Shown: piece after piece, positions 1-32,653 of the stretch
Position numbering within the stretch: position 1 is the first letter of the stretch
Layout: every line of letters begins with the position of its first letter
Virus record (IMG/VR): IMGVR_UViG_3300044613_002555
Location: 1 to 32,969 of that record
Origin: a virus
Length of the DNA stretch: 32,969 nucleotides
Reading direction: 5' to 3' (one strand)
Program-made: the position numbers and the translations under genes
Notes under the pieces: model-generated
Database searches by the model: none
Seen by the model: the letters and a program-made list of their open reading frames with translations, nothing else
Told to the model about the DNA's origin: nothing

Positions 1-3000
1 GGTCTTAATGTACTATCAGGACTACCACAAAACTTATATTTTTTTGGTTGTCCCGCAATGTTAAAAATTGTTTGTTTTTTCAATGAGAACATATATAAAG
101 AACCATTGACCCAATTGTTTTGAAACACATGTGAAAATATTCCTCTACATGCAGCAAACACCATTCTAAATCTTGTTTTCCATTCAAAGAAATATGTAAC
201 ATCTTTTGGTATTGAAACAAGTAATGGACTATCAACAAATTTGTAACATCCCCCTGACATTCTTTTTCCATTCGGATTTTCACTACATGGATTTTGAACT
301 GAAAAAGATGTCCCACCGCCTTGGTAACATTTTAATACTGTCATGTTTTCACAGGAAAGTGATGCCAAAACTGTACTTGATATTTGACTCGGAGTGTCTC
401 CTGTTATATCTTGAGCATTATTTGTAGTGTCATTAGGACCATTTGTTGATGGTGCCAATGAAGTACCACCATCTTCGTCTACTGTGTAGACCGCAAAGTT
501 GTCGTTTAAAAATAAACTAAACGAGTTATTACCACTTAATTCTGTCGCACTTGATGTAGGTAGTCTATCAGACCTAAATACAATGTTAGAAGAGTTTGAA
601 ATGGAAATGTTCGATACTACCGAAGTGTGGTATGCTGGTGAATAAACTCTTGTGGTTGTTGTTGCAATGTTTATACTTGTTCCCGGAGTTGCGTTTGAAG
701 CAATTAAAGTTCCACCTTCAATATTACCTTGAGCACTTAACACACCATTTGTCCATTGGAACGCCAATTTATTATTACCAACACTTGGTTGTATATTTGA
801 ATATACACCAGGTGTGGAAGTAAAATATGATAAAGTCACAGCGTCTGATGAATAAGCTTTAAATGTTTGTTGTGACTTATCTGTTGAGTTATAAAAGTAA
901 GGTGAGTTGTTTGTAAATGCACTAAACAATGTACTATCAGGAGTAAAACCAAAAGGTGGGTGATATAATGACGCATTTGTATTATTTGAAACTAAATGTG
1001 ATTCAGGCGTTTTATAATCATTAAACCAAGCTCCACTTCCTGAGTTTTGTTGTATTGGTACATTAAGATAATAACTACCTTCAATAACAGGACCCGAACC
1101 TAAGTTAAATCCAAATAATTTCGATAGGTCATATCTTATATTTTGTTTGTCGGTGTATGGGTCCGTACCTCTTGTTAAAAATATAATTTCATAGTTTGCA
1201 AAATTATCAATAAATTTGATTGGGAATACGTAGTCACATTGTTGTACTGGTGTACCATAACAGAATCTTTGTGTCTTTTTAAACAAATATTTGTTAAGTA
1301 ATCCTCCCGTTGTGTTTGTTAATCCTGAAAACTGTGATACAGTACCTCCTGTGATAACTTGAAAATATTCAACCCCCGCAGGATATTTGTAATCTTTTCC
1401 ATCTTCAGATATATTTAATTTCAAGTTTACAGTTTGTTGTAAACCTGCTTGATTAATGTAATTAACAGGAACTGTCACTAAACTTGTTGCGTTATATGGT
1501 GTAGTTCCCGTAATACTATTAGTATTAAACTGATTGGAATTAGTTATACCCGTTAAGTTGGGGTCATTTATTAAGTTGATGTCTTGGAATGTTAAAAGTT
1601 GTCCAGGTTGTAAACCGTTGAAAGTTCCACTATCAACAAATAACATCATAACACTATCGGTAAACGGTTGTGACGCATCTAATGTTGTTGTATTTGGAAT
1701 GTTGTTTCTAACAGTTGTTTGAATTAAATTATCACCTTCAAAATATCTTTGTCTAATATTTGCTAAATTCAAAGATTGTGATAGTGTAACGTCATTCGCT
1801 AATACTTTTATTCCCCCTTGTGCCGGATATTCGGCAATTGGAGTTTTAACTAACTTATCATTATCATTTCCAAGATTTTGGAATTGGTAACCCGCCATCG
1901 CTTGGACAACTCCATTGTTAAAAGCGTCAGGGTCATTTGCCGAAGATGCTTGCGATGAGTTGTAAACACTATAAGAAGTTGTGGAATTTGTATTCGCTAA
2001 AGGACTATTATTTTCTGATGAAATTGCAACATTTGCACTTTGAGCGAATGAACTTTGACTACTATCTTCAGGAAGTGTTTCATCAGTACATGGGCAGGCC
2101 TCACAATCAGGATAAGACAACATGGGTAAAGAAATTCTTTTAAATATATTTTCTTTTCCTAATGGTTTAATTGATTGGGTTTTACAACCACCTTTAGGTC
2201 TTGCTCCAAATGTGATTGCACTTATCGCTAAACAAATACCATATATAACAACATTTATTACCCATATTAAAAGATTTATCAATATTCTTAATATTGGGTA
2301 TATAAATGCAACAAAGTGTAAAATGATTATTAAAGTTATGAACGTAGGTGTAAGTAGTATTAAAAGTAGACTTAGTAAAAAGAACAAAAAGTCAAAATTT
2401 CTTACACCATCATTAACCGGAAATCTGTTTGTGGTGGTAGTACATCGTCTATCTGTAATTTCTTTTATACCTAAATGTCTACTTCTATTGAATCCCCACT
2501 TCCATCTATCTATAAAATTTGCAACTGTATAAACTTTATTGAAATTAAATTGATAAAACTTATCATTACAGTTTACAGCCTCTTGAATCATTTGTTGACC
2601 TATTGTCGTATTCACATCCCCATAATCATCCCAATCTAAACTAAATGCGTATGATTTTAATTGTGCGGTTACGTCTGTAGGCGCATTGATGTTAGATGTG
2701 GTCCATCCCCATTCTTTAACATTTGGAACCAAATAATCTGCTCTTAATACACTTGATTCCATTCCATCTTCATTCTGATATTGGATTCTAAATCTATATT
2801 TTCCTTTTGTTGGTATACCGACATTTGGGTCTGTTGATAGTACTTGTTCACCAAACTCGTTTGTTGTTACGTAGTCCAAATTCATTGGGACGTTTACTAA
2901 CCAAGTACCGTTGTCATCAATTATTTTACCTCCTTCGGGTAGTGAATATTGTTCTAATGCCGGTCTACCGTTTACATCATAATTTATTGTTTGTCTAATT

Positions 3001-18800: not shown

Positions 18801-21800
18801 ATACGCATCTAAAAAAGACTGATAGGTTGGTGTGTTTAAAATGGTCAAATCTTTGTTAAAGAAAAATCGATAAACATTATTAATTACTTTAGGATACACC
18901 CCTAAAGTGACATTATCCATCGTTTGATTAACATTTGGTATTAGTGTTGTTGTACTTTGTAATTTAATTTCTACTTGAGTTGTTCCGCCAGTATATGATG
19001 GAAAAATTAATTTACTATTTGTGCTAGGTGTTGTCCCTGTTGTGTCATAACTTTTTAAATAATCAAAATCGGTCCAAATTGTATTATCTAATATGTCATT
19101 TCCTGTTTGAATAAATTTTTTGTACCTATGCCATATACTTCCATATTTTAAAACCCACGCATATGGTAATCGGTGAATTGATGAAAACTTGTTAAAGGTT
19201 GACGCCAAATAATCTAAATCTGTTGCCACGGAACTTGTGTCATCAAAACTTTTAATTTTTTCTCTTGTTGTAATTAAAGGTAATGAATTTAAATATAAAT
19301 AACCTAATGCAGCGTAAGGGTCTGAAACGTTTGTTTTTTGATTTTCAACTCCTTGAACTAAAGCATTAACAAAATATGGAGTATTCAATAATGATGTTGT
19401 TTGTATTTTTGTTGCTACTTGACCACTATATTCATTCCCATAATCAAAAATACTTTCGGTAAAATATAAGTCTTTTTCTTTTCTTGTTGAATAAAAATTA
19501 CTCAAAGAAGTTTGTGAGTTTACTGGTACACTTGTATTCAAGTTTGTCATGAAAGGTTGTGTAAAATTTTTAAACTCATACTTAGAAACAAAAACATTGA
19601 TATTTTTAGTGTTTTCTGTTTCGTTTACCCTCGCTATTGTTTTTTTCTCATCTAAATAAACATAACTTGATGTTTTATTAAAATCGTTTATTGATGAAAT
19701 ACTATCACCTCCTTGTAAATTTGACTTTAACCAATTAACATTTGTTATTGGGTAGTTGTCTAAAAAATAAGTGTCGGTGGCTGGCATACCGTTTATAAAA
19801 TTTTTAATTGAGTCAGGTAATGGTACATTCCCGTCTATGGCAATTGATGAATTAGATAATGTGTCAATACTATAAACCTCATTATAAACATCAACGTTTT
19901 GTGTTCCATCATTTAATTCTAATAAATTTTTTATGTACTCTGTGGTAAAAACTGAGTCAGAATAAAGTGTCCATCTTGTACCAGTACCATTATTTGAAAT
20001 TTTTCTTAATGTTTGTAAAAAATTGACGTAGGTGAATGAAAATTCTTTTAAAATTTTAGTGAGTGCCAAATTACTTTGTACTGTTTGTTTTATATTTTCA
20101 GCCTCTAAATTTCCCAAGAAAACAGGTATTTGTTCTTGGTTATATCCATTTCTATTTAATTTAGCATAATACGCACCTAAATAACTTCTTTCAAAAATTT
20201 CATATAAATAACTTTGTTCTTGAGTATTAACGTATGGTGTTGTTTTGAATGGAAATTCTACTGCATTTATAGATAAAACTTTACTTAACGATGCGGGATT
20301 ATTATATACATTTGCAGATTTTGGTGTTGTTTTTTGTGCTATTGCATTAATGTATTCCTCAGTAAACGCAACTTCGGGCCATACAACACTATCGAATCCT
20401 TTTGTGGTGTTTATAACTGAACTGTCACCAGGGTATTTTATAACGTATAACTCTGAACCATCTTTTTGGGCTTCTTTTAAAAAATATTGTGGCCAAGGAT
20501 AAACAACATTTAAATCGTTAAGTTGATTTGTACCGTTTACCAAATTTTTAGAATCTACTCCAAAATTTTTTGATGCCGGTATAATTGATTCTAACCTTAT
20601 TGGGTTTGTTCTTTGATTCCATGCGCTTGTGTGGGTGTCTTCCATAAGTCTATAAAACCCATCTAATCCGGCAAATAAAACTGCCATAACGTTTCTTATA
20701 GTAGGTAAAAATCCTAAAACATTTGGTCCGTTTACTACTTGGTCACTTAAAAACTGAGTGAGAGATTTTTCTATTTCTACATTTTTTTTATTTAACTCAT
20801 CATTAATTTTTTGAATCTTATCTAAAAAACTATTTGCAATATAATTGTTGGAACTTCCAACTTTATCACCAAATTTGTAATATTGGGGAAAATCATTAAC
20901 CACAGTGTTGGTTAATGTGTCAAGTAAAAAATTTGGATTAAGACTTTTAAAGTCGGCAATAGATTTATTTAACTGATTGTCTGTTGGATTAGTTCCAAAA
21001 TTAACAACATATGTTTCTCTAAAATCCGCGTCGGTTAATGTGTTATAATCTATCTCTTCAAAAATATCATTAATTGAAAATTTAATCGGTATTTCACCAG
21101 GTATATTTCCCTTATCAGGTAATTTATACTGTCCTCCCGTTCCAAAACTTTTGTTATTTTTTAATAAAGTAACATAGTTGTTTATTGCAGTTTCAACACG
21201 TTGTTTATATTTTGCTCTATCTGCAAATGAAATGTTTTCTAAATATGGGTAATAAATTTGTCCTTTGTATAATTTTTCTGATGTATCTAAAAAGTCAGTT
21301 ATTGAATTGGCGTAGACTTCGTTTCTTAATTTATTTAAGTTTGTCTGAAAATCAGCAACATCATTCATTACTGTAAAATCTGCCTTTTTTAATGCGTCCG
21401 CTAATGCTGTAGGTAGGTTTTCTATTCGGGCAATAAATTCCTCTAAAGTTATTTCAGGAAAATCTGGAGTAATTAATCCCTTACTTTTATAAATAGAATA
21501 AGCTTCTCTCATTTTTTGTAACCCTACTGATTCAACAACGGTGGTTGAGTTGTTTGTATTTACACCATTATTTGAAGAGTTTGAAGTACTTTGAGTAACC
21601 ACAGTTTCTGTTTGAAACATTTTTGGTGAGTTTCTAGCATATCCTATTATACTATCAGCAAGTATCGCACTGTTTCTACTTAAAAGTTTAAGAGTAATTT
21701 TAAAATTACCACTTGACGCTTCGAAACTCGCATTGAAATCCGTTAAACTTAATTGGTACCTAATTGCCTTCCCATAATATCCTTTTAAGGTTAAAAAAAA

Positions 21801-22409
21801 CGGAGGATATGGTAAGTTAAAAAAAACAGAATATAATGAATTATCTCCTTGTTCAAATAAAGCTCGACCTCTAATGTCTTCCATTTGTATTGTTACATTT
21901 GTCACATTAGCTGGTGTTACGTCAACAGTTATTTCTGTAATACCTAAAGTTTGAGTATCTTCATAGTTTAAAACTTTTTGTTTAAAAACAGCATTTCCAT
22001 CTTGATTAATTTGATATTCGGAGTTTTGATTAATTCCTTGACCTTGTCTAACGCCTCTACCTGTAAATTCATCCGACCAACTTGTATCAAATGCTTTTTT
22101 ACCTTTGGGTCTTAAAAAATTAAGTTTCAAATCTTCAGGGAAAGTAGATAAGGATGCAATTTGTGAATTATAAACAGGATTATCAAAACTATCACCAATT
22201 GCTAATTTTGTTCTTGGTATAATTTGTGTTTCTAAATTTGCGTAAAAAACAAGATTTTCTTGTTGAACGTATCTATCTTTAACGTTGTTGTCTGCATCAA
22301 CAACTTTGTTAGGGTCAATTAAAATAATATTATCGTAGTCGGCTTCGACTAGAATTTTATTTTCTTTGTTATATATCTGTCTGAATTTTGTTGGGTCATT
22401 AACGGCCAT
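15834..22409 (-). CDS. Giant baseplate hub-like structural protein (2191 residues)
   Basis: Residues about 100-260 form a beta-rich module with DIRGRALFEQGDNSLYSVFF and NLPYPPFFLTLKGYYGKAIR, which I associate with large uncharacterised T4-like virion proteins. Near the C-terminus (about 1860-1925) NVEIEMMGNAMIQPTMYFNL and YGPYMVLSLSHRITQTSFST resemble the last domain of late-control-D/gp27-type hub proteins, where a strand describing a position or offset is followed by a G-x-Y-x-V-x-x-x-x-H motif. The long middle is rich in Asn, Thr, Tyr and Phe and has no clear domain. A final part of about 250 residues is separated by a linker. It starts inside the last 11 bases of the LysM/gp53-like gene, so translation is probably coupled. 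T4 gp27 has only 391 residues, so this is very large. Hub identity is inferred, the virion role is likely. Confidence 0.8.
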   Translation of the reverse strand: MAVNDPTKFRQIYNKENKILVEADYDNIILIDPNKVVDADNNVKDRYVQQENLVFYANLETQIIPRTKLAIGDSFDNPVYNSQIASLSTFPEDLKLNFLRPKGKKAFDTSWSDEFTGRGVRQGQGINQNSEYQINQDGNAVFKQKVLNYEDTQTLGITEITVDVTPANVTNVTIQMEDIRGRALFEQGDNSLYSVFFNLPYPPFFLTLKGYYGKAIRYQLSLTDFNASFEASSGNFKITLKLLSRNSAILADSIIGYARNSPKMFQTETVVTQSTSNSSNNGVNTNNSTTVVESVGLQKMREAYSIYKSKGLITPDFPEITLEEFIARIENLPTALADALKKADFTVMNDVADFQTNLNKLRNEVYANSITDFLDTSEKLYKGQIYYPYLENISFADRAKYKQRVETAINNYVTLLKNNKSFGTGGQYKLPDKGNIPGEIPIKFSINDIFEEIDYNTLTDADFRETYVVNFGTNPTDNQLNKSIADFKSLNPNFLLDTLTNTVVNDFPQYYKFGDKVGSSNNYIANSFLDKIQKINDELNKKNVEIEKSLTQFLSDQVVNGPNVLGFLPTIRNVMAVLFAGLDGFYRLMEDTHTSAWNQRTNPIRLESIIPASKNFGVDSKNLVNGTNQLNDLNVVYPWPQYFLKEAQKDGSELYVIKYPGDSSVINTTKGFDSVVWPEVAFTEEYINAIAQKTTPKSANVYNNPASLSKVLSINAVEFPFKTTPYVNTQEQSYLYEIFERSYLGAYYAKLNRNGYNQEQIPVFLGNLEAENIKQTVQSNLALTKILKEFSFTYVNFLQTLRKISNNGTGTRWTLYSDSVFTTEYIKNLLELNDGTQNVDVYNEVYSIDTLSNSSIAIDGNVPLPDSIKNFINGMPATDTYFLDNYPITNVNWLKSNLQGGDSISSINDFNKTSSYVYLDEKKTIARVNETENTKNINVFVSKYEFKNFTQPFMTNLNTSVPVNSQTSLSNFYSTRKEKDLYFTESIFDYGNEYSGQVATKIQTTSLLNTPYFVNALVQGVENQKTNVSDPYAALGYLYLNSLPLITTREKIKSFDDTSSVATDLDYLASTFNKFSSIHRLPYAWVLKYGSIWHRYKKFIQTGNDILDNTIWTDFDYLKSYDTTGTTPSTNSKLIFPSYTGGTTQVEIKLQSTTTLIPNVNQTMDNVTLGVYPKVINNVYRFFFNKDLTILNTPTYQSFLDAYNTVGLKIGTNSTSGKFYNFGFDLQNPNRAFVNKNYYAYFDNPESNQKFLLIPSTGGININQMNFECFDATNKIKEEVFNNKAVYNGSVRPLWGVSQFGYFKNSLIKKPAFNEYLKVVYTNNSKNLSFELKNAQSTYSNIEEIFAVFEPEILDKFENLFLNFCNPTPAVSDLILNEEQTNSNYTNPGSVRNVTEKRLFNQMESLFMVPKNSVTLLNDESQDGLLLAEKQISNFFPKVVDFLNFECVLKMGNPGNFKRRVFNYISNNPTFQPLNPLTLNPYIPGSLPGDGTVGSPTLATSIANNRDAWNSLRKYVGVFNQTPFQYTDTGSVITDFFTANNGMDIEFTEANVEALFPLIRLFAKQKSEDATLNKLKFQQAINNFLLQQQNFNAENLTQTFNRLNTDLPTTTTNTTTIKNTTSGNVNKLDTYSILKTMNDKWISGTDFLNKTIFEDFLFQDKAGRDIGDEFTIDLEKIKGYLKSNDNQNYLSLISQICSQNNMVFFALPAYVNFYGIQQAVAKSTPLPVDATETLFGTFLDVDYLKASPKFLLLYTGKPSEFVASNSSFSKFASDTFDIRKSSDNPLRVPSNPEEDYSKKNRVVGFSVDYGTQNQSIFKSVKVDMSEKKNTAESNKMFAQLGASVSGDKVAQQSVSLYSIYKSRSYNVEIEMMGNAMIQPTMYFNLRHVPLFYGPYMVLSLSHRITQTSFSTTFSGPRISRYSLPQPNSLLDTVNQNYINAYKELILKEVKTTEPITNVNTQQGTVQPGALQSPENICLSATTFTTTPFVGINITPITVEDLKTLLTTNIPAAQEKLRPLYFGIAFTRINNKIDQVVCNPPNYNLYEISTSNNYTADLNALISQQVCLTTALENDTSSRPYASFSDFVVPTQFIHAQVQSFLPIIEQLKTFSTNTTDVEKYAEAYTLFTLFWFEGRFVSPGGGVGAYVNLPSTTNDFITRKNDKVNSSFPDIQDIYNRYFVQFKNSYGIFFP

Positions 22410-22716
22410 AATAAAAAATATGTGTATCTAATGCACTTTTGTAGCCTTGTAGAGCACTTATTAATGGGAATGGTATTATTAATACCGCACCGTCAGGAAT
22501 ATTTGTTTCTAAACCACCATATATTGGATTTGCAGTTAATATTAACCAACCAAAATATGGTGTTCCATATTTTTCATAACTTATTTTATCTAATCTACTT
22601 TTATTTTTTGTGTAAATGTATCTTTGGTCTGACGCTCTGACGGGTAGATTAACAAATGGAACTACCGTCTGTTGACCGTTAATTAAAAAATTTTGGTATC
22701 TGTTGTAGTATTGCAT
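22399..22716 (-). CDS. Small LysM-like baseplate protein (T4 gp53-like)
   Basis: The product has 105 residues. The central YTKNKSRLDKISYEKYGTPY, then WLILTANPIYGG and IPDGAVLIIP, follow the LysM pattern: a strand, a helix with DKIS..KYG, W..I..AN, and a closing G..L.IP strand. In contractile tails such small LysM proteins sit next to the hub (P2 gpX type, T4 gp53 type) and help join the tube or wedge to the baseplate. The gene lies between the two giant baseplate genes, with a one-base gap upstream (TAATATG) and an 11-base overlap downstream. Which of the two T4/P2 counterparts it matches cannot be settled by eye. Confidence 0.8.
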   Translation of the reverse strand: MQYYNRYQNFLINGQQTVVPFVNLPVRASDQRYIYTKNKSRLDKISYEKYGTPYFGWLILTANPIYGGLETNIPDGAVLIIPFPLISALQGYKSALDTHIFYYGR

Positions 22717-22717
22717 A

Positions 22718-25700
22718 TTAGTCGAATGAAACTTTTAAGTTATATTCATCACCTGTAGAATTAGTTGATGCGTTTAGGGCTTTCATGTTGTCAATTTCTG
22801 TTTGTGCTGGAAATAATACTTGAGAAAAATTTAGTTTTCTTTCCTTATCTTTATTTAAATTATAACTACATGTTGAACAAAATTCTTTACTTAAAAAATT
22901 ATCTTCGAAACTTTTAAATCTTGCATCAACAAAAGCTTTTGAATCTTTATATTTTGCGTAAGGTCCTGTTGGTATTTCTTGTCCCGTATTTGTAAAACCT
23001 AAATTACCTTTAAGATAATTAAACCAGTCGGTTTTTCTTTCATTGTTTGAAATTGTATCGACGACTTCATTTAAAAATTTGGTATAGTCATCAATAATTT
23101 CTTTACCGAATATCATAAAAAATCTATTTTCTTCAGGACTTATCGCATCTGGGTCCGAATCTATAAAGGTATTGAAATCAAACTCATCGTTATATACTTC
23201 ATCTTGAGCGGTTGGAATCAGACTATATGTTTCTAAGTTGTTATTAAATGTGCTCATTTTGGTTCCAACAATTAATAAGTCTCCTTTTAACTCATCCAAA
23301 GTATTTGCGTATGTCGTATTAGATGGGTCAACCGCAGAAGTACCTGTCAAAGAAAAAACAATTACTTCATTTTTATCGTTAGAATAACCATCGAAAGAAT
23401 TACACACATAATTTAATTGGTCTAATAAATCAATTGTTTTAGTTTCATCAACTTGATTTTTTACAATGTTGTTAGACGCCTCAGTTATAATAGACAGGTA
23501 AGTTGACTGTCGACTATCTATCATATCTTTAAGTTTTCTTTTAATTTTTCTTGTCGATATATTTGTAAAATTCTGTAGAGGTAAACTAGCCAATATCGGG
23601 CTTGTTTCATTTTCTACATCTTCTTTTGCTTTAGAAAACAACGCATCAACTTTATTTTCATACTGACTTTTTCCAAATATTTTTACTAAGTTAGTTTGTG
23701 GTTGATTGATGTTATTAAAATATCCCGTTTGGTATTTTCTATCTTTTGTAAAAATTAAAATTCCTCCAATCAATAACTTATCATTTATATTTTTTAAATT
23801 TTGAAAAACACTATTTGCATATTCTTTGGTTATGTCTATAAAATTTTTCATATTTTCTTTATATGATAAAACACCTGTAAATCCACTTAATGTTGTATCA
23901 TATTTAGATGATTCTTGTTTTCCAATTGTAGTTCCAATTTTATTTTGTTGGTTTTGCTGTGGTCTTGTCAATGGGTTTATTTTCAAAGCTTCAAAATATT
24001 CTGCATCATACTGTGATGTTACATCTTCGGTTATTGTCGCCCTTTCATCATACATTTCAGTATTTGCATAATAATTAAATGAAAGGGCGTTTTGAAGTTC
24101 GGCTATCGGACCCGCCAATCCATGACCACCTATCATTTTAAATCCTAATGTTATGCTTGCAAACATAGGTTGAACGCCTATTCCTTCAGGATTCAAATCT
24201 AACGGTATATTTGAATTAAGTTCATATTTTATATCTAACCTATCAGGTATTATTTTAGTGTGGAAAAAATCACCAATCCTTAATACCAAAACAGGTGGTG
24301 CACCAAATGCACTGTTAAAGGCGTCGTTATAATCTAAACTATATGTTCCTGCCGCATTTTGTGAAACAGTTGGAATTGTATCTCCTGGTCTTACACATTG
24401 TTGTAAAAATGTTAATCTTGAGTTTAGACCTTCAGGAGTAATAGAGTGGAAAACAGGATTAAAATACTGAAACTTACTTCTAATTGTGTCATAAATAAAT
24501 GGATTTGTCTCTTTAACCATTTGAAAATAATTACACTCTGTAAGTAACCTTCTTAATATTTTTTTCGCCAAATCTTTATATTGTGGTGTTTGTTTAAAGT
24601 TGTCAATTACTTGGTTTTGTGGTGTTGGTTTCGGTGCTGTACTTTCAGCAGCGGTAGGATTTGGAGCAGCAGACTCTACTTGTGAAGGTGGTGTTTCTGA
24701 TTTTGCGGGTGGTCCTGGTTTATATACAATTTTTTCAATTTTTACTCTTCTACATGCCATTGCCTGTACAGAATAAATTCCTTCTTCGTATTGTGATTTA
24801 AATGGTTTGGTACAATCAATTTGTGAATATTTAGGGTCTTGAATTGCAGCACTTGAGCCCGTCGCTTTAGCATTTATTTTTAGTTTTCCTGAATCTATAA
24901 ATGATTTTAAAGTTTTATTATTTACTGTAAACTTTTCAATAAACTTTAAAACCGCATCGTTTCTTCTTTCAGACAAATTTTGATTACCACTGGTATTTGT
25001 TGAGCTGGCAGTTGCCAATAAGTCAAAAGTGACTTCTCCACCTGAGTCTAAAACTTTAAATACTTCACTTAAAAACTCTTTTAAATCATTAAACTCTTGT
25101 AATATATTATCAAAAAATCCACTAAGGGTTTGTTTTCTTGTGTCAACATATTCGGTTAATGAAAAAGTAGGAGTTGTTGTTGTGTTAAGAGCCACTTTAT
25201 TTGCGTCACTATATTTAAAAACTTTATTAAGTGGTTTTGTTGTGTCATATAATGTTTTATTTGACACATATTCATTATACCAATATTCAAAATCTTTACT
25301 TGTTGTTGAACTACTTGAATCGTTAGGTTGGGCGTTTTCAAAAAACAAAAATATTTCTTGAAACTTTGGGTCTGAAATTTTTGTTTCAGTTTCTGGTGGT
25401 GTTGTTTTTACAATTTCTTCTTTTACAGGTTCGGGGTCAGGTGTTTCTTTTACTATGGTTGTTGCTTGTTCAGGATATTTTATTAGTTGAATAGCGGTTT
25501 GAATATCCTGTGGGGCTAAAGATGCGAATCTTTGACCTAATGTATAAATGTCATATTTTAAACACCCTGCAAAAAATGAATCCATAACTTTTTTCAATTC
25601 TGACTCAGGTTTTATATCTTTCAACTCTTGGTCCACTAAAATGTTTGAGATAGAGGGATGGTCAACTATAATGTCAAAAGATAATGACCCATTTCTTTCA

Positions 25701-28700
25701 GTACTATTATATGTGTATATGGGTTCTGGTCTACCTATGAAATTTGTATTACTGAAGTCGGGTCTTGTGTCTTCACTAAATGTCAAGTTATATGGAGGAA
25801 ACCACATAATTCTACCACCATTGGGTCCTCTTTCACAAGCCGGTAAATCTTGTACGGTAAAACCAGGTTTGTTTGATGTTCTCCAAGCCAAATTTTCTAA
25901 CGAAAGCATATATTTTTTAACCTGACCATTAATAATATTTGACGATTGTCCGTTTTTATCATTGAATGGTACAATATTAAGGTTATATGTATTATCTAAA
26001 ACTGAATAGGTATAATTTCTAATATTACCATCCGTTTTTTGTAGTTGTGAATAATTTGTAAAAGGAACATCTTTTGTAAATAATCTACAATATTCATATC
26101 CTTTTATTGTACTGTCTGTACTACCTACTGAGTTTTTTGAAGTATATCTAATAACTCGAGAACCTTTTGTCATTTCAACATATCCATCATTAAAAACTTT
26201 AGATATTTGATTTATCGCAGTACCAACGTGTTCTAATTTTTTAATTCCTGACCTGTCTGCAGAATCAACAATTTTTTGAGTTGTGTCTAAAATTGAACCG
26301 TCTCTCCATACATTGTTTTCTTCTATTTTCCAAGACTCAGTATCTTTGAACGCTGACTCATAATTTTTTGTAAATACGCTACTTTCACCAAATCTTTGTT
26401 TTCCTTCAGGACCTGCTAATTGTCCTGTTTTAAAATATGATTTTTTAGAAGACCATGTGAATCCACCAGCTAAAGGTGTTGTACCATCTATATAATTTCT
26501 AGTGTTGAGACCAAATTTATAATTTTGAAACGCTTCACCTTCAAAATACTTTCCTATTTCACCCACTGAGTAAACAGGTGCACCACTAGGTTCTCCGTTC
26601 CTGTCTAGGGGTTGAGCATTAACTGGAGATATTAAAGTAGAAAATATATCATCAGAATTACCACCACCATAAAATTCAGGGGATGGGGCAAATAAAGAAG
26701 GTCTTCTTAAAGTTAGACCTCTATAATCAGGTCTATATAAATTATAAAACAATTGCCCAAACAATAGACTTCTTGTTGCGTTAGATGTGTTGGCTAAAAA
26801 AAGTTCAGACCCTCTTTTGTTTTTTTGACCTGTTATTGTTCTAATTGCTCCCATAACAGTACTTGTCACAACTTCAACTGGGTTTTCAACAAGTCTATTT
26901 AACATACGTTTATTTGGGTAGTCAAAATATTCTCCAACTATAATGGAATACGGTGAATATAATCCTGCTATTTTAGCTGTAAAATTCAACGCTCTTCCAA
27001 CTAATGATTCAGGTGATGTAATTGTATAATTTCTAGCTAATAACGGAATATTTCCTGATATTATTCCCGCTGCGTCAAATGGGTTAAGGTTTGGTTTTAC
27101 TGATATTTCACCACTATCGGGGTCAACCGATGAGTCAAGAGCATTAACTCTACCTAAAGTTTGAGACAACAACTCACTTGCAATTCTATACTTATATTCT
27201 TTTTTTAATTGTCTTGCACCAATTCCCGCTAATGCGGAATCCTGTGACAAAGTACCATCAGAACCTCTTGGGTTGTCGCTTAATAATATATTAATAGGTC
27301 TATAGGTTGAAGGTATAAAATTTAAAGGTGTTAATGAATATGCATATGCACTTCCATAACTTGTTGGTATAATTTCATCAATTGTTATTACATCATAGTC
27401 TCCATCACCTGTTACATATTTATTTCTAACATATGCCTCTTGTTCTTTTTGAAATCCAATAACTTCTAATCCACTACCTTTAGTATCGGGAAAACCATAT
27501 TCACCTTCATTTGACAATTTACCCAAATTTACATTGATGTCTACTGAATCTGTTGGTTGATTTTCAGGGTTATATTGATTTACACTAAATAATAAAGGTC
27601 TTTCATTTTCACCTTTAATTTCTAATTCACTGTCTAGTGTATCAGGAAAACCATAATTACCTTCGTTGGCGTTTGTTTGTAAATTTAAATTTGGAACTAC
27701 AGTAGATTGAGATTGTCCTTGTTCAGGTCCATATTGATTTATAGCAAATAATATGGGTCTATCGGTTTCACCTTTAATTTCTAACTCACTATTAATTGTG
27801 TCTGTAAAGTCATATTCTTTTTCGTTAGCCTTTGTTTGCTTATTAATAAATGGGAATACAGTATCTAAAAAACCACCACCAGGACCATATTGGTTTAATG
27901 GGTATAAGGTATTTCTATTTTGTTCACCATCTTGTTCTAATTCGCTATTTATTGTATCAGGGAAACCATATTCACCTTCATTTGAACCTAAAGATAATAT
28001 GTTATTAATTGAATATTTTGTTGCTCCGTACCCTGGAGTGGATGCGTCAGGTGTATATTTATTTAAAACTCTTAAAATAACTTCCCTATCATTACCGTTT
28101 GTTTCTAATCTATTGTTTACAGTATCAGAAATATTGTACTCTCCCGCACCTACAGTTTGAATAACTTGGTTATTTTGAATACTATAAACAGGTGTTCCAA
28201 AACCATTATTACTAGTATTTTTATAAACGTTTAATACTTTTAACGCAATTTCTTGTTGATTACCAATAGAATTTAAAAAACTGTTGATTGTATCGGCGAT
28301 AGTATATTCACCTTGTCCATTTGTTACAAAAGGTTTTAAATCATTAATTGAATAAACAGGCGTACCAAAACCATTAATTGCAGAATTTTTATACGCATTT
28401 CTTACTTTAGATAAAATTTCTTGTTGGTTTCCTATACTATCTAAAAAACTATTTATTGTATCCGAAATACTATATTCACCCTCTCCTCTTGATTGAATTG
28501 TTTGATTATTATTAATGTACCATACAGTATCACCAAAACCACGGTCATTTGTGTTAAGTGGTTTATAAAGGTTTGTTACAATTAATTCTTTTTCTTTTGT
28601 ATCACCAATTTTTTCTAAATCACTTCCAACAGTTAAAGGGTAACCATATTTACCTTTATTTGTTTCTGTTTGTAAATTTTTGTTAATTTCTATGGTATTA

Positions 28701-29107
28701 CCATATGATGTTTCAAATTCTGTTGGCCCGTAAATGTTATTAACATACAATAATTTTTCTTGTCCGTCTCCAATTTTTTCTAATTTAGAGTTAATGGAGT
28801 TTTTAAAACCATATAAACCAAAATTAGTTTCAACATTAAGATTAACGTTAATATTGACCATATCTCCGTAGGTGGAGTTACTATTATCAGGGCCATATTT
28901 ATTTTGTTTATATAAATCTTTTTCCTGTATGTCACCAATTTTAGAAATTTCTTCAGAGTCTTTTACTGAATAATCTACAATTTGAAATTCTTTATTTTGA
29001 AAAGATTCTCCAAAAGATGTGCCGTCAACACGATATGGTTTAAGATTTCGTGTTAATAATCTTTTTCTAAAGTTTTCAGAAGAGTTAAATGAAAGTGGAC
29101 TATCCAT
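22718..29107 (-). CDS. Giant baseplate protein with tandem repeats and inserted OmpA-like domain (2129 residues)
   Basis: Four parts are visible. First, residues about 40-574 are ten tandem units of about 52-57 residues. Second, residues about 575-1215 include a Gly/Pro-rich part and the segment GGRIMWFPPYNLTFSED (about 1097) with FIGRPEPIYTYNSTERNGSL. Third, residues about 1245-1460 are an OmpA-like domain with a Pro/Glu-rich linker on each side. Fourth, residues about 1500-2129 have LRIGDFFHTKIIPDRLDIKY and LNPEGIGVQPMFASITLGFK, which reads as the second half of the same tail-protein module as part two. A pair of cysteines (FCSTC) lies near the C-terminus. The gene comes directly after the tape-measure gene and before the LysM-like gene, the position of tail-tip and baseplate proteins. 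I do not know a close family; virion location is inferred from context and wording. Confidence 0.85.
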   Translation of the reverse strand: MDSPLSFNSSENFRKRLLTRNLKPYRVDGTSFGESFQNKEFQIVDYSVKDSEEISKIGDIQEKDLYKQNKYGPDNSNSTYGDMVNINVNLNVETNFGLYGFKNSINSKLEKIGDGQEKLLYVNNIYGPTEFETSYGNTIEINKNLQTETNKGKYGYPLTVGSDLEKIGDTKEKELIVTNLYKPLNTNDRGFGDTVWYINNNQTIQSRGEGEYSISDTINSFLDSIGNQQEILSKVRNAYKNSAINGFGTPVYSINDLKPFVTNGQGEYTIADTINSFLNSIGNQQEIALKVLNVYKNTSNNGFGTPVYSIQNNQVIQTVGAGEYNISDTVNNRLETNGNDREVILRVLNKYTPDASTPGYGATKYSINNILSLGSNEGEYGFPDTINSELEQDGEQNRNTLYPLNQYGPGGGFLDTVFPFINKQTKANEKEYDFTDTINSELEIKGETDRPILFAINQYGPEQGQSQSTVVPNLNLQTNANEGNYGFPDTLDSELEIKGENERPLLFSVNQYNPENQPTDSVDINVNLGKLSNEGEYGFPDTKGSGLEVIGFQKEQEAYVRNKYVTGDGDYDVITIDEIIPTSYGSAYAYSLTPLNFIPSTYRPINILLSDNPRGSDGTLSQDSALAGIGARQLKKEYKYRIASELLSQTLGRVNALDSSVDPDSGEISVKPNLNPFDAAGIISGNIPLLARNYTITSPESLVGRALNFTAKIAGLYSPYSIIVGEYFDYPNKRMLNRLVENPVEVVTSTVMGAIRTITGQKNKRGSELFLANTSNATRSLLFGQLFYNLYRPDYRGLTLRRPSLFAPSPEFYGGGNSDDIFSTLISPVNAQPLDRNGEPSGAPVYSVGEIGKYFEGEAFQNYKFGLNTRNYIDGTTPLAGGFTWSSKKSYFKTGQLAGPEGKQRFGESSVFTKNYESAFKDTESWKIEENNVWRDGSILDTTQKIVDSADRSGIKKLEHVGTAINQISKVFNDGYVEMTKGSRVIRYTSKNSVGSTDSTIKGYEYCRLFTKDVPFTNYSQLQKTDGNIRNYTYSVLDNTYNLNIVPFNDKNGQSSNIINGQVKKYMLSLENLAWRTSNKPGFTVQDLPACERGPNGGRIMWFPPYNLTFSEDTRPDFSNTNFIGRPEPIYTYNSTERNGSLSFDIIVDHPSISNILVDQELKDIKPESELKKVMDSFFAGCLKYDIYTLGQRFASLAPQDIQTAIQLIKYPEQATTIVKETPDPEPVKEEIVKTTPPETETKISDPKFQEIFLFFENAQPNDSSSSTTSKDFEYWYNEYVSNKTLYDTTKPLNKVFKYSDANKVALNTTTTPTFSLTEYVDTRKQTLSGFFDNILQEFNDLKEFLSEVFKVLDSGGEVTFDLLATASSTNTSGNQNLSERRNDAVLKFIEKFTVNNKTLKSFIDSGKLKINAKATGSSAAIQDPKYSQIDCTKPFKSQYEEGIYSVQAMACRRVKIEKIVYKPGPPAKSETPPSQVESAAPNPTAAESTAPKPTPQNQVIDNFKQTPQYKDLAKKILRRLLTECNYFQMVKETNPFIYDTIRSKFQYFNPVFHSITPEGLNSRLTFLQQCVRPGDTIPTVSQNAAGTYSLDYNDAFNSAFGAPPVLVLRIGDFFHTKIIPDRLDIKYELNSNIPLDLNPEGIGVQPMFASITLGFKMIGGHGLAGPIAELQNALSFNYYANTEMYDERATITEDVTSQYDAEYFEALKINPLTRPQQNQQNKIGTTIGKQESSKYDTTLSGFTGVLSYKENMKNFIDITKEYANSVFQNLKNINDKLLIGGILIFTKDRKYQTGYFNNINQPQTNLVKIFGKSQYENKVDALFSKAKEDVENETSPILASLPLQNFTNISTRKIKRKLKDMIDSRQSTYLSIITEASNNIVKNQVDETKTIDLLDQLNYVCNSFDGYSNDKNEVIVFSLTGTSAVDPSNTTYANTLDELKGDLLIVGTKMSTFNNNLETYSLIPTAQDEVYNDEFDFNTFIDSDPDAISPEENRFFMIFGKEIIDDYTKFLNEVVDTISNNERKTDWFNYLKGNLGFTNTGQEIPTGPYAKYKDSKAFVDARFKSFEDNFLSKEFCSTCSYNLNKDKERKLNFSQVLFPAQTEIDNMKALNASTNSTGDEYNLKVSFD
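24725..25375 (-). other. OmpA-like (peptidoglycan-binding type) domain inside the 2129-residue baseplate protein
   Basis: At about residues 1245-1460 the protein reads EIFLFFENAQPND, then GGEVTFDLLATASS, then NQNLSERRNDAV, then AMACRRVKIEKI. This follows the OmpA C-terminal pattern: an opening strand, the second strand with a small-residue turn, the N..LS..R...V helix and a final RRV.I strand. The outline, with an FFEN opening and a long helical insert before the second strand, is like OmpA-type domains of Bacteroidota envelope proteins. Pro/Glu-rich linkers lie before (about 1219-1243) and after (about 1459-1500), as expected for an inserted module. Confidence 0.75.
27385..28990 (-). repeat. 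Ten tandem protein repeats at N-terminus of the 2129-residue protein
   Basis: Ten units of about 52-57 residues are recognised. A typical unit is (N/G)EGEYGFPDTINSELE, then a short G-x-x-x-x charged turn, then LYxxNxYGP, then a variable loop and a V-x-x-x-N-x-N strand. Units 1-3 share SKLEKIGD, units 4-5 share INSFL.SIGNQQE and FGTPVYSI, and units 7-9 share SELE with QYGP or QYNP, so neighbouring units are most alike. This suggests growth by local duplication. Confidence 0.9.
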
Positions 29108-29144: not shown

Positions 29145-31154
29145 TTATCCTCTTTTTTGAGTAATAAATGCATTTGATAATTTATCTGAATATTCAGCAC
29201 TTAATCTAGTATTGACTGTGGACATAATTGTTTCTTTTAATTGTGACGTATTTAAAACTTCGTTTATTAGATTTTGTGGTATATTTGTGTTAATGTTCAA
29301 AGTAACTTCAGTTTTACCTCCAATTTCTACTTTTTGAGTTGTTTCTGTATTAGTTGGTGAAAATGAAGAAGACTTTGTTAATAAGTCAACCAAATTTTGT
29401 GATGGTTGAGCGGTAGCGTTTTTATATAATAAAGATAAATCTCCTCCCGATTTGGGACCTCCAATTGATTTTAAAATATTTTCAGATTCATTATATTTGT
29501 TAAAAAAATCTCCAATTCCAGGAGAAAGTAACATATCATCTTTAGTGTCTCCCAAAAATTTACCAAAAGAACCCGTAACCATTTTTCCTCCACCTGCAGG
29601 TACAAATGCATCTGAAACTTTTACTGTTGGGTTTGGTGAAGGTGGTGTTATACCCCCAAGTGTTACTTGTATAGAGGCAACAGTTGTATCAACAAGAGCT
29701 TTAAGAGTTGCTATAAAAGTTGTAAAAGTAGCCAATTGAAATTCGTATGCGGTTTTAATTGAGGAATTTGCATTATCAAACGAATTTTTGAACTCTCTGA
29801 TTAAACCATTAAGAGATGTTTCAGCCGCACCATATAATGTTTTATCTTCTCCGGCTTTAAGTATTGTTTTCCCAACATCTAAACCTTGACCAAAAATACC
29901 TTGGTTTTGAATTGTAATTAATGTTGCCAATTGTTTATCTTGTACACTTAGTTGATTTTTAGCATTTTGTAACATTTCTGTTTGTAAATCTTGTTCGCTC
30001 TTACCTAAATCTTTGTTGTACTGATTCAATGCATCTATGAAAGTATTATCATTCATAAGTGTTGCCAAGTCTTTTCCTGCTTCATCAAAACCTGGTAAAT
30101 CTATAGATACTTTACCTCCAGGTCCAATTTCTGCCAAACTTGAAACTAACCCTCTTTGTTCCTCAGTTAAACCTTTAAAATCAATCCCTTTGGACATAAT
30201 TTCTTGTTCTTTTCTGGCATTGATTGCCCCTTTAGCAACGTCTTCATAAGATAGACCTAAAATATCGGCTTGTTGTCTTAATCTCAACATTTCCTCACCA
30301 CCAATTTTAAATTCACCTGTAGTTTCATTAAAATCAACAGCAGCTGATGAGGCTTTAATAATTTGGTCTTGAAGTCCTTCCATATCATACATTGACATGT
30401 GTATTAATTGAAAGGGGTCACCTAATGCACCAATATTACCACCTAATGCTTGTAATTGAGAAGCCATTTCCACGGCCTTTTCGGGACCACCATTCAAGAT
30501 TAGGTTTGCTGTTGTTTGTGCTTTATCTAAACTTAAACCTACACGTTGTGCTTGAGCGGCCATTTTTGTTAAACCTTCGACACCATTTTTAAAACCGTAT
30601 ATTTGAGCCTTTTGGATATTATCAGACACTGTTTTGGTTAGTACCTTTGCATCAACACCTGACGCCTTTGCGGTTGCAGCAACTTTATTCATTATCGCAA
30701 TGGATTTACTTTGTGTAATACCATATTGAGTCATTCCTCCAATAAGTTTAGCGACATTCTCAGGAGTTTCTCCGATTGCTTTTCCAAAAACTAATGCGTT
30801 TTTTGTCATTTCAGCACTTGTAGGAATCATCCTACCCATACTTGATTGTACTCCTTCTAGAAATTTTCCCGCATCTTCAAATGCAATACCATATTGTATA
30901 CCTTCTTCATAAACTTTATAAATTTCTTCTTGAAATTCAACAACGCCCTTTCTAAGTCCTTGACCTAAAGTTGTATTTAGTTTTGTTGCTTTGGATTCTA
31001 ACGTTAAAAAGAAATTTTCAACCCTTGTTTGGTCAAATGCAGAATTAAACGCCTTATTTAATTGGTCTGAAAAGTTGGAAACTTGTACATCTGTATAGGT
31101 AGGACCGCCACTACCAGTGCCAGCAAAAGGGTCAGAATAACCTAAAAACATCAT
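29145..31154 (-). CDS. Tail tape-measure protein (probable)
   Basis: The product has 669 residues, compared with 590 for T4 gp29. It is mostly helical and Ala/Gly/Lys/Gln-rich, with runs such as AVEMASQLQALGGNIGALGD, GVDAKVLTKTVSDNIQKAQ and LRQQADILGLSYEDVAKGA that are characteristic of tape-measure proteins. A semi-hydrophobic stretch near residues 455-495 (YEFQLATFTTFIATLKALVD) could be the membrane-active part. The C-terminus has a short beta-rich section (GGKTEVTLNINTNIP) and a last helix. The start ATGATG is preceded by AATAAAACTAT. It lies after the gp26-like chaperone candidate and before the baseplate genes, the usual tape-measure position. By the family rule of about 1.5 angstrom per residue the tail would be roughly 100 nm. 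Confidence 0.85.
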   Translation of the reverse strand: MMFLGYSDPFAGTGSGGPTYTDVQVSNFSDQLNKAFNSAFDQTRVENFFLTLESKATKLNTTLGQGLRKGVVEFQEEIYKVYEEGIQYGIAFEDAGKFLEGVQSSMGRMIPTSAEMTKNALVFGKAIGETPENVAKLIGGMTQYGITQSKSIAIMNKVAATAKASGVDAKVLTKTVSDNIQKAQIYGFKNGVEGLTKMAAQAQRVGLSLDKAQTTANLILNGGPEKAVEMASQLQALGGNIGALGDPFQLIHMSMYDMEGLQDQIIKASSAAVDFNETTGEFKIGGEEMLRLRQQADILGLSYEDVAKGAINARKEQEIMSKGIDFKGLTEEQRGLVSSLAEIGPGGKVSIDLPGFDEAGKDLATLMNDNTFIDALNQYNKDLGKSEQDLQTEMLQNAKNQLSVQDKQLATLITIQNQGIFGQGLDVGKTILKAGEDKTLYGAAETSLNGLIREFKNSFDNANSSIKTAYEFQLATFTTFIATLKALVDTTVASIQVTLGGITPPSPNPTVKVSDAFVPAGGGKMVTGSFGKFLGDTKDDMLLSPGIGDFFNKYNESENILKSIGGPKSGGDLSLLYKNATAQPSQNLVDLLTKSSSFSPTNTETTQKVEIGGKTEVTLNINTNIPQNLINEVLNTSQLKETIMSTVNTRLSAEYSDKLSNAFITQKRG

Positions 31155-31174: not shown

Positions 31175-31363
31175 TTATTCTTGTTGTTTTTTATTTTCTT
31201 CAATCAACTTATTAATGAAGAACTTTCTTTCATATGTTGGCATACTCATGATGTCTCGATAAGAAAATCTTGCGAACTTGACTAAATAATATATTTCGTC
31301 TAATAGATGTTTTTGATAATCAGAAGAAAGGGCGAAAAAACTCCACCCCAAAAGTAACATCAA
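31175..31363 (-). CDS. Small ORF overlapping the gp26-like gene; possible frameshifted extension
   Basis: The frame has 62 codons from a TTG at 31363 (next ATG at 31360) to the stop at 31175, and overlaps the end of the gp26/gp51-like gene by 44 bases in the +1 frame. The part after the overlap, with HLLDEIYYLVKFARFSYRDI and MSMPTYERKFFINKLIEEN, looks like a real conserved helical protein. The first ten or so residues (MMLLLGWSFF) look like a chance translation of the other gene. A GGAG lies 12-15 bases before the possible starts, which is far. Either it starts internally (for example at the ATG of MSMPTYERKFF) or it is made as a C-terminal extension by frameshifting. Position just before the tape-measure gene is where tail assembly chaperone extensions occur. 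Confidence 0.65.
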   Translation of the reverse strand: MMLLLGWSFFALSSDYQKHLLDEIYYLVKFARFSYRDIMSMPTYERKFFINKLIEENKKQQE

Positions 31364-32072
31364 TAGTCACTTTTTCTCCAGACGGGGTTTGAATTACTTT
31401 TTGTAAATCGATTTTTGGTTCACATTTATATGCAAATCTTCTAAAGTCTTTTGCATCTGATATTGGCATTTGATTAATAAACTTTACAATTTGAAGTGGG
31501 TCCTTAGAACCATCGATTTCTACAATTTGTTTTTCTAATCTTTTGGTTGCAATAGGTACGGTCATACCGGCTGGATATTGAGAATTAAATTTGTCCAACT
31601 CTTTTTGGTCCCCAATTGTCAACAGTCTAAACTTAACTTCTTTTTTAGATTTTGGTAGTACATATGAGAATAACCCTTCAAAATCAGGTTTTTCTTCAAT
31701 CGGTTTGTAATCCAACGCATCTAAAAGAACAGTTGTTTCAAAAGTTTTGTTTGTTCTCGGGTCAGTAACCGTAAAGTTATATTCAGGACCAAAAGATGTG
31801 TTTCTTAAAAAAATTAAAACTGCTTGAACGTCACAATCTAACATATCATTAATGTTAAATCCAGGTTCATATATTTTTTGTCTAAGTAATGAATAAATAA
31901 TTCCATCTTTATCGTTATTTTGTGACATCAAAATATTTTCATCTTGTGCGGTTAAAAAACCTACTTTAATAGTTTCTTTTTTTGGTTTGTAAAATATACC
32001 TTGTGATGGTAATTTTATTACGTCATGTGGCAAACTAAAATCCATTTGCCCGTATTTTGCTGATTCGTCCAT
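31320..32072 (-). CDS. Baseplate hub assembly protein, T4 gp26/gp51 family
   Basis: With the start at 32072 the product has 250 residues. The T4 family (T4_baseplate type; T4 gp26 has 208 and gp51 249 residues) acts in building the baseplate hub. Family features are LPSQGIFYKPKKETIKVGFL and LTAQDENILMS near the N-terminus, the middle FGPEYNFTVTDPRTNKTFET with LDYKPIEEKP, and the C-terminal strand KVTIDVTFGVEFF. The frame is open further upstream to 32126, but that part would encode the terminator of the tube gene, and AAAATAAAAACT directly precedes the ATG at 32072 as in neighbouring genes, so I use the later start. Its position between tube and tape measure also matches that of tail assembly chaperones in other phages. 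Confidence 0.85.
   Translation of the reverse strand: MDESAKYGQMDFSLPHDVIKLPSQGIFYKPKKETIKVGFLTAQDENILMSQNNDKDGIIYSLLRQKIYEPGFNINDMLDCDVQAVLIFLRNTSFGPEYNFTVTDPRTNKTFETTVLLDALDYKPIEEKPDFEGLFSYVLPKSKKEVKFRLLTIGDQKELDKFNSQYPAGMTVPIATKRLEKQIVEIDGSKDPLQIVKFINQMPISDAKDFRRFAYKCEPKIDLQKVIQTPSGEKVTIDVTFGVEFFRPFF
31335..31340 (-). other. Candidate slippery T6 run in the gp26-like / small ORF overlap
   Basis: The gp26-like frame reads GAG TTT TTT CGC, followed five codons later by TGA at 31322-31320. A shift of -2 or +1 at the T run enters the small ORF frame (TTC GCC or GCC) and would give a fusion of about 300 residues. No experiment or conservation supports it here; it is proposed from overlap, frame and location. 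Confidence 0.3.
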
Positions 32073-32083
32073 AGTTTTTATTT

Positions 32084-32091
32084 TAAAAATA
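32084..32091 (-). promoter_or_regulatory. TATTTTTA variant element before the gp26-like gene
   Basis: TATTTTTA is followed by 11 bases (AAATAAAAACT) and the ATG at 32072. Spacing and downstream bases match the elements before the tape-measure and 74-residue genes, with one mismatch in the 8-mer. Confidence 0.25.
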
Positions 32092-32107
32092 TTTTGAATA
32101 AAATTAT

Positions 32108-32140
32108 TGTAAATAAAAAATCCCATCTATTGACGGGATT
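32108..32140 (-). terminator. Rho-independent terminator after the tail tube gene
   Basis: On the minus strand AATCCC and GGGATT (32135-32140 with 32119-32124) form a 6-bp stem, with two more pairs inside after one mismatch, followed by TTTTATTTAC. It lies 25 bases after the tail tube stop and before the gp26-like gene start. Confidence 0.75.
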
Positions 32141-32164: not shown

Positions 32165-32653
32165 TTAGTAAACTAGAATACATCTATCCGGTCTCAAAGT
32201 CATGTCTACAGTCATAAGGTCTGAACCATCATACCCGACCTCATTAAATTTTGCTTCCGTTATACTACAATTTTGTAATATCCACTTTTCAACTGCAACT
32301 CCTGTTGGGTCTAACATTTCTAAGTTCACATCTTTTTTGTAACCAGCAGCATAACCCATACGACCTGTTACTGATTCAGCATGTAAACGAACCCACTCCA
32401 TTACCGCCTGAGCTGCCGATGGACCAATCGGGTCTCTTAAGGTTACAGAAATAGTGTCCCACGCAAAAGACCCTGCAACATAAGTTTCAGTATTCAAAAA
32501 TTTAATTTCTTTTGTATCAATTTTAATTGACGGTCTTGACGCTTTTTCAACATACCATGAATTAATACCCAAACTAGAGTCAAATGTTAGTATAAACCTA
32601 TTTTTCTTTTTTGGTTCGTACTGAAACGGCATTCTCATTAATAAATCAGCCAT
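32165..32653 (-). CDS. gp19: Tail tube protein, T4 gp19 family
   Basis: The product has 162 residues, almost the same as T4 gp19 (163). It stacks in hexameric rings to form the inner tube that carries DNA into the cell. Family features are the N-terminal strand NRFILTFDSSLGINSWYVEK, the long hairpin region ETYVAGSFAWDTISVTLRDP, the helix AAQAVMEWVRLHAESVTGRM, and the C-terminal strands WILQNCSITEAKFNEVGYDG and LMTVDMTLRPDRCIL. The gene has its own TATTTATA element upstream and a terminator directly downstream, as expected for a high-copy protein. T4 gp54, a related tube-end protein, is longer, which favours gp19. Confidence 0.92.
   Translation of the reverse strand: MADLLMRMPFQYEPKKKNRFILTFDSSLGINSWYVEKASRPSIKIDTKEIKFLNTETYVAGSFAWDTISVTLRDPIGPSAAQAVMEWVRLHAESVTGRMGYAAGYKKDVNLEMLDPTGVAVEKWILQNCSITEAKFNEVGYDGSDLMTVDMTLRPDRCILVY

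Follow-up and report, generated by a model that had tools for sequence, protein, structure and literature searches.

An OmpA-type domain predicted to interrupt the tail-tube domain of proteins from an uncultured phage group

The window analyzed here is a complete virus record of 32,969 bases. Pfam and PHROGs searches of its ORFs place the gene studied, which encodes a protein of 2129 residues, in a T4-like tail cluster (Table 1). The cluster runs in the order tube, hub, tape-measure-like protein, 2129-residue protein, 105-residue baseplate-wedge-like protein and a 2191-residue protein, and two more baseplate-wedge proteins, which we take to be gp25-like and gp6-like, are encoded further on. 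No sheath gene was identified within the window. The 105-residue protein has no match in Pfam and, judged by eye, a LysM-like look. The 2191-residue neighbor (window 15834-22409) gave no Pfam or PHROG match of note and no match in the PDB, and a tail lysozyme was thus neither found nor excluded; its positional counterpart in Flavobacterium phage immuto, gp33, is annotated as a carboxypeptidase. Elsewhere in the window, a short tandem repeat with units of 21, 27 and 48 bases lies at 15383-15503, inside an ORF of 226 residues (14902-15582). The N-terminal repeats of the 2129-residue protein match one another: seven units are recognized by motif at residues 209-585 and the earlier ones by eye, and TRF reports a 159-base unit in 1.8 copies.

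Table 1. Features of the 2129-residue protein and of its neighbors in the window
Feature	Position in window	Strand	Basis
Tail tube protein	32165..32653	minus	phrog_4542, E 2.1e-27
T4 baseplate hub-like protein	31320..32126	minus	PF12322, E 7.3e-6; also PHROGs search
Tape-measure-like protein	29145..31154	minus	PF20155, E 0.0022, below its cut-off; phrog_14441, E 0.0027
2129-residue tail-tube-initiator-like protein, carries the insert	22718..29107	minus	ORF; tube-half match; synteny with immuto gp35
N-terminal repeats, residues about 40-580, diverged units of ~50-55 residues	27368..28990	minus	
Predicted tail-tube domain, first half, residues 1060-1185	25553..25930	minus	Model strands 69-148; VIA matches over 61..671
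Helical stretch and Pro/Thr-rich linker 1, residues 1186-1247	25367..25552	minus	Low pLDDT; dN/dS
OmpA_C-like domain, residues 1248-1463, b1-a1-b2-a2-b3-a3-b4	24719..25366	minus	Profiles, AlphaFold model, structural matches
Ligand-pocket motif, residues 1365-1386: Ser1368 (DAP Asp position), Asn1375, Leu1378, Arg1382	24950..25015	minus	
Conserved Cys pair (1432, 1452) and Arg1453-Arg1454 ahead of strand b4	24746..24814	minus	
Pro-rich linker 2, residues 1464-1505	24593..24718	minus	Low pLDDT; dN/dS mixed
Predicted tail-tube domain, second half, residues 1535-1695	24023..24505	minus	Model and structural matches
105-residue baseplate protein	22399..22716	minus	phrog_7145 baseplate wedge, E 1.3e-5; immuto gp34 counterpart by position

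The initial annotation had placed an OmpA-type domain at 24725-25375 (residues 1245-1461). The motifs it named lie where it had put them, and the domain is there, with limits that we reset to residues 1248-1463. Searched singly against Pfam OmpA, the 2129-residue protein scores below threshold (E 0.072, 13.9 bits, cut-off 27.2), and a six-frame search of the window record returns a single PF00691 match, also below cut-off (E 7.8e-5). With a profile of 64 aligned inserts, the PDB yields 48 sequences at E ≤ 1, of which 46 are OmpA-type as judged by name; the best E-value is 2.4e-9, and the structures include OmpA, Pal, MotB, YfiB and PorE. With a domain-only profile there are 31 PDB matches at E ≤ 0.01 (best 1.8e-8). 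Pfam OmpA is found in 52 of the 64 inserts at E ≤ 10 and in 81 of 113 at E ≤ 1, the best E-value being 6.9e-10.

The domain was predicted with confidence by AlphaFold2 when modeled alone from 60 aligned domains (mean pLDDT 94.5, pTM 0.91). In VIA-align this model superposes on Pal (4g4v; Z 10.4, 2.3 Å, 110 of 111 residues), on OmpA with bound stem peptide (3td5; Z 10.0) and on PorE (Z 9.6), and the titles of its best 50 rows are almost all OmpA/Pal/MotB-type. Foldseek E-values are modest, at best 2.8e-4 for the domain alone and 1.0e-2 for the larger model described below. About 70 extra residues separate b1 and a1 in the model. Cys1432, Cys1452 and Arg1453 are invariant across all 60 rows of the domain alignment (A7); a loose pattern, which misplaced it at least once, finds the Cys pair in 81 of 98 inserts. 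In its placement, this pair appears similar to the disulfide of E. coli OmpA. Together, the profile searches and the predicted structure confirm an OmpA-type fold, far beyond what chance would give, where failure to find one would have counted against the original claim. The sub-threshold score of the single protein is what one might expect if an ordinary tail domain, unrelated to OmpA, carried the motif by accident; we consider this scarcely credible, and ruled out by the family profile, the Pfam matches in relatives and the structural matches.

When residues 1000-1740 were modeled together, overall confidence was weak (mean pLDDT 62.5, pTM 0.38). Averaged over ten-residue blocks, the OmpA part scores 69-96 in pLDDT and most of the first tube half 69-82; much of the second half lies at 51-86, with some stretches below 50, and the linkers score about 30-53. 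The two flanks of the insert jointly match PVC7 (6j0n_b; Z 11.0, 5.4 Å, 152 aligned, model range 61..671), Afp7 (6rao_G; Z 10.6, 4.9 Å, 151 aligned) and a chain of the T4 baseplate-tube complex (5iv5_BE; Z 9.1, 3.6 Å, 143 aligned). Many phage tube proteins likewise match from the first to the second half of the flanks, Z being 9-11 for PVC7, Afp7, T4 and phage baseplate tube proteins alike, and the OmpA part is matched alone by separate rows (model 243..465). These alignments support the view that the OmpA_C-like domain is inserted in a single predicted tail-tube domain that closes around it, in agreement with the earlier proposal of a single tail module in which linkers flank the insert. The possibility that the segment is an integral subdomain of the tail protein is ruled out by the model and by the tube matches spanning both flanking halves.

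By predicted fold and gene position, the 2129-residue protein fits a contractile-tail tube initiator of the PVC7/Afp7/gp48-gp54 kind. It had been called a baseplate protein and is better named a tail-tube initiator or extension ring; the comparison first made with T4 gp5 was off target, as gp5 is a different part from the tube initiator ring. The LysM-like part of proteins of the PVC7/Afp7/T4 kind is presumably encoded here, judging by eye, as the separate 105-residue gene.

In two cultured phages, Flavobacterium phage immuto and Microcystis phage Mel-JY01, the tail-tube domain is uninterrupted. Both immuto gp35 (E 1.5e-5) and Mel-JY01 WWT39329.1 (E 5.4e-5) share the first tube half with the 2129-residue protein but lack the OmpA insert: 112 and 180 residues, respectively, remain past the first-half match, too few to leave room for it. 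The domain profile has no match anywhere in the whole immuto or Mel-JY01 records. Immuto genes run in the order sheath, tube, hub, tape measure, small ORF, gp35, 101-residue protein and gp33, and the gp40-gp34 order (tube, hub, tape measure, gp35, ~100-residue protein) parallels that of the window, making gp35 syntenic with the insert-bearing gene. The Mel-JY01 counterpart also has a long repeated N-terminus, with repeats that look unrelated to those of the window. In a tblastn search of 50,697 phage records, from which near records may have been left out, the window protein, L103, L102 and L077 are unmatched at E ≤ 1e-5, and the insert of L172 has no match at E ≤ 0.1 in the same collection, from which close relatives may again be missing. 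The search itself works, because the gp6-like wedge protein finds 40 records there, listed first being immuto at 28.4% identity. The tube and domain profiles give no match in LR756508.1.

Scans of viral contigs gave 21, at least 80 and at least 78 loci, on contigs that are partly common to the scans, and genome contigs gave 5. Among the loci listed, 174 proteins have both tube halves and yield 114 inserts at below 80% identity; ten entries lack both halves in one frame (L009, L017, L020-L022, L105, L142, L154, L156 and L183). Some loci are one contig entered twice (e.g. L004 and L023), which the 80% redundancy filter removes. The insert counts leave out 17 immuto-type loci, and alignment A6 omits L185, which has a 954-residue gap. 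A core profile built from the 64-sequence alignment and applied at E ≤ 1e-3 within this small set detects 98 of the 114 non-redundant inserts among the loci listed, including 36 of the 52 that were not used in building it. Judged by these matches, the insertion is spread through the family. In PHROGs, 24 of 113 inserts match phrog_7897, which has no name, and 13 of 113 match phrog_26111 ('membrane protein').

A compact form of the insert (GYAS...LAKNRA...RRVDL) is carried by L103 and L114, apparently one 51,360-base contig with two entries, one titled as a Prochlorococcus genome and the other an IMG/VR virus. L103 is the weakest case, identified by the family profile (E 2e-5 for L115, in the set of 114) and the motif: in the PDB its insert alone has three matches, none of OmpA type (best E 0.94), its protein shows no Pfam OmpA, and at E ≤ 0.01 neither PF00691 nor A7 matches record G013, which holds L115 of the L103 group. 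A 380-kb record, G009 (L213:2478-6956), encodes two tube proteins with an OmpA-type insert, at 7815 and 234075, which are either paralogs or the product of a mixed assembly.

Of the four pocket positions expected to hold the ligand, three are largely conserved in the inserts that the core profile detects. In the portion of the PorE report cited here, Arg591 holds the DAP carboxylate, Asp576 (through side chain and backbone) and Asn584 hold the amine, and Ile587 makes a hydrophobic contact with DAP (PMC7192894); a passage on TagL gives Asp486, Asn494, Leu497 and Arg501 as the equivalents (PMC8253398). Among the 98 inserts detected by the core profile, to which all pocket counts apply, Arg is kept in 97 (the other has a gap), Asn in 89 and Leu in 89, with Ile in 7 more. 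The position of the DAP-binding Asp is Ser in 84, Asn in 9, Thr in 3, Tyr in 1, Gly in 1 and Asp in none. The 36 independent inserts have Arg in 35 (one gap), Asn in 31 and Leu in 33, plus Ile in 2. Of the initial annotation, which had asked after the DAP-binding Asp and Arg, the OmpA fold and its insertion in one module are supported, within a T4-like cluster; the Arg is present (Arg1382 in the window protein), while the Asp is replaced by Ser1368.

The missing Asp is a difficulty for a wall-binding role. An Asp-to-Ala change has been used in A. baumannii OmpA, in the part of that study cited, as alteration of a key peptidoglycan-interacting residue (PMC6572160). In Borrelia BpiP, Glu at the Asp place goes with ornithine peptidoglycan and is required for binding, according to the relevant lines of its report (PMC8092773), and by that example specificity can be set at this position. 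The tail copy of relative G006 has the sequence GYAS (L174), whereas a separate 608-residue ORF (L209:2950-4773) with a hydrophobic N-terminus has a textbook GHTD OmpA domain (PF00691, E 1.3e-20). The Ser is therefore specific to the tail copy and not a property of every OmpA domain there, and the contrast counts against wall binding by the tail protein. Weaker OmpA-type ORFs occur in L210, L211 and L212.

Sixteen inserts have no core match: three empty linkers, L185, which is a very long insert with the motif visible by eye, and 12 drifted forms of 202-240 residues. Arg stands at the helix start in 5 of these 12 and was not seen in the other 7, in which the pocket, because of this, looks abandoned. 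The three empty linkers stand for five contigs (L157/L161 and L159/L160/L162) with a linker of 120 or 147 residues and no OmpA sequence; PF00691 has no match in the records of these contigs, which are fragments of 15-33 kb, so their genomes may still encode an OmpA domain elsewhere. In a midpoint-rooted FastTree phylogeny built from 268 columns of the tube halves in 116 sequences, the five form one clade (support 0.853) that adjoins an OmpA-bearing sequence, with a joint support of only 0.679. The OmpA domain was probably lost once in this clade, as a single loss fits the clustering of the five empty contigs next to an OmpA-bearing sequence. For the origin of the insertion, capture of a host envelope domain by phage is a plausible candidate.

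These departures from the canonical pocket are what would be expected if the OmpA fold had been reused as a spacer or docking domain that touches the sheath, the wedge or the 105-residue protein and does not bind peptidoglycan. LysM domains in contractile baseplates offer a parallel, being a wall-binding fold in structural use. We consider this main rival a serious possibility: the Asp is absent throughout the 98 inserts and no Arg is seen in the seven drifted ones, about 70 extra residues intervene between b1 and a1, the domain was probably lost in one clade, and it sits inside a tube protein. However, a purely structural part has no need of the DAP-contacting Arg and Asn, which persist in 97 and 89 of the 98 inserts, respectively, in an alignment with 12% mean column identity.

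The evolutionary rates bear on the same question. We made six pairwise dN/dS comparisons, two of them near-identical, using crude counts in which dS often exceeds 1. The ratio is 0.06-0.24 in the domain, 0.06-0.20 in the first tube half and 0.07-0.12 in the second. In linker 1 (residues 1216-1245) it is 0.30-0.60. For linker 2, three comparisons give 0.48-0.62 and two give 0.03-0.05, and no value could be computed for the sixth. By these estimates, the domain is maintained and linker 1 changes faster, while linker 2 does not always do so. Purifying selection on the domain argues for a function, and the faster evolution of linker 1 argues against the rigid packing that a structural role would suggest. 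A function could also be met if the target were not the wall but a protein of the host periplasm; YfiB binds YfiR, and Pal binds TolB, through the same fold. Both YfiB and Pal, known from such complexes, are among the structural matches, and the divergence of the inserts would fit a host-specific partner, but the pocket Arg, Asn and Leu need not then be kept; we think this alternative unlikely.

The best reading of the data, to which we assign a probability of about 0.47, is that the insert is a tube-tip domain engaging the peptidoglycan stem peptide with an altered pocket. The absence of Asp and the G006 contrast lower it, as does the lack of Arg in seven drifted inserts, and a common fold does not show a common function. 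In this mechanism, the 2129-residue protein would form a ring at the baseplate of a T4-like contractile tail, either initiating the tail tube or extending it, with each subunit carrying an OmpA_C-like domain between a tube-domain helix and the next strand and hanging on two linkers, such that one ring would present several of these domains. Once sheath contraction carries the tube tip through the outer membrane, the domains would enter the periplasm. There they would engage the stem peptide of peptidoglycan, or a variant of it, through a pocket that retains Arg, Asn and Leu but has Ser or Asn in place of Asp. Such engagement could tether or orient the tip of the tube during opening of the wall. 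In short, the results suggest that the tail tip of an uncultured phage group may grip the cell wall in infection. A broader proposal is possible but rather doubtful, namely that, in a large uncultured lineage of contractile phages, OmpA-type domains that bind the wall form a ring at the tube tip. Their pocket, with Ser or Asn for Asp, would suit another stem peptide or a modified form of DAP, and holding the wall would be a separate penetration step lacking in model phages.

Both parts of the protein are of known kinds; what is new is their combination, its spread and the altered pocket. In the open-licence literature we recognized no title that describes an OmpA-type domain from the tail tube or baseplate of a phage. 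A Leptospira prophage paper was considered as a precedent and rejected, as the part of the paper concerned reports that OmpA-like Loa22 did not turn up in the prophages (PMC8705779). OmpA-type domains in phages are already in databases: BFVD contains phage proteins named OmpA-like (A0A6J5KTY6 and A0A8S5RHQ6), as well as an unnamed protein that matches more closely (A0A6J5L6C4, E 8.7e-6). If the domain binds the wall, contractile phages would have a tube-tip tether comparable to the anchors of the T6SS and the flagellar stator, and host wall chemistry could affect host range; if it does not, the tail has clearly taken over a wall-binding fold as one of its parts. The domain-bearing, empty and drifted relatives form a natural contrast that makes wall binding testable.

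Compared with known systems, the 2129-residue protein shares the tube fold of PVC7, Afp7 and the T4 baseplate-tube proteins, with both halves aligned, and adds to it the OmpA insert and a very long repeated N-terminus. Its predicted OmpA_C-like domain has the topology and fold of PF00691 domains (Pal, OmpA, MotB and PorE), the N..LS.RR helix start, the R-R ahead of the last strand and the Arg, Asn and Leu of the pocket, but differs in that the DAP Asp is mostly Ser, in the ~70 extra residues after b1 and in being embedded within a tail protein. A precedent for anchoring by such a domain is the T6SS, in which TagL carries an OmpA-type domain on a contractile machine and, in the passage cited, is thought to anchor it to peptidoglycan (PMC8253398). 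TagL/TssL and the phage protein thus have in common an OmpA-type domain attached to a contractile machine; however, the T6SS anchor belongs to a complex in the attacker's own envelope, whereas the phage tube protein would meet the wall of its target.
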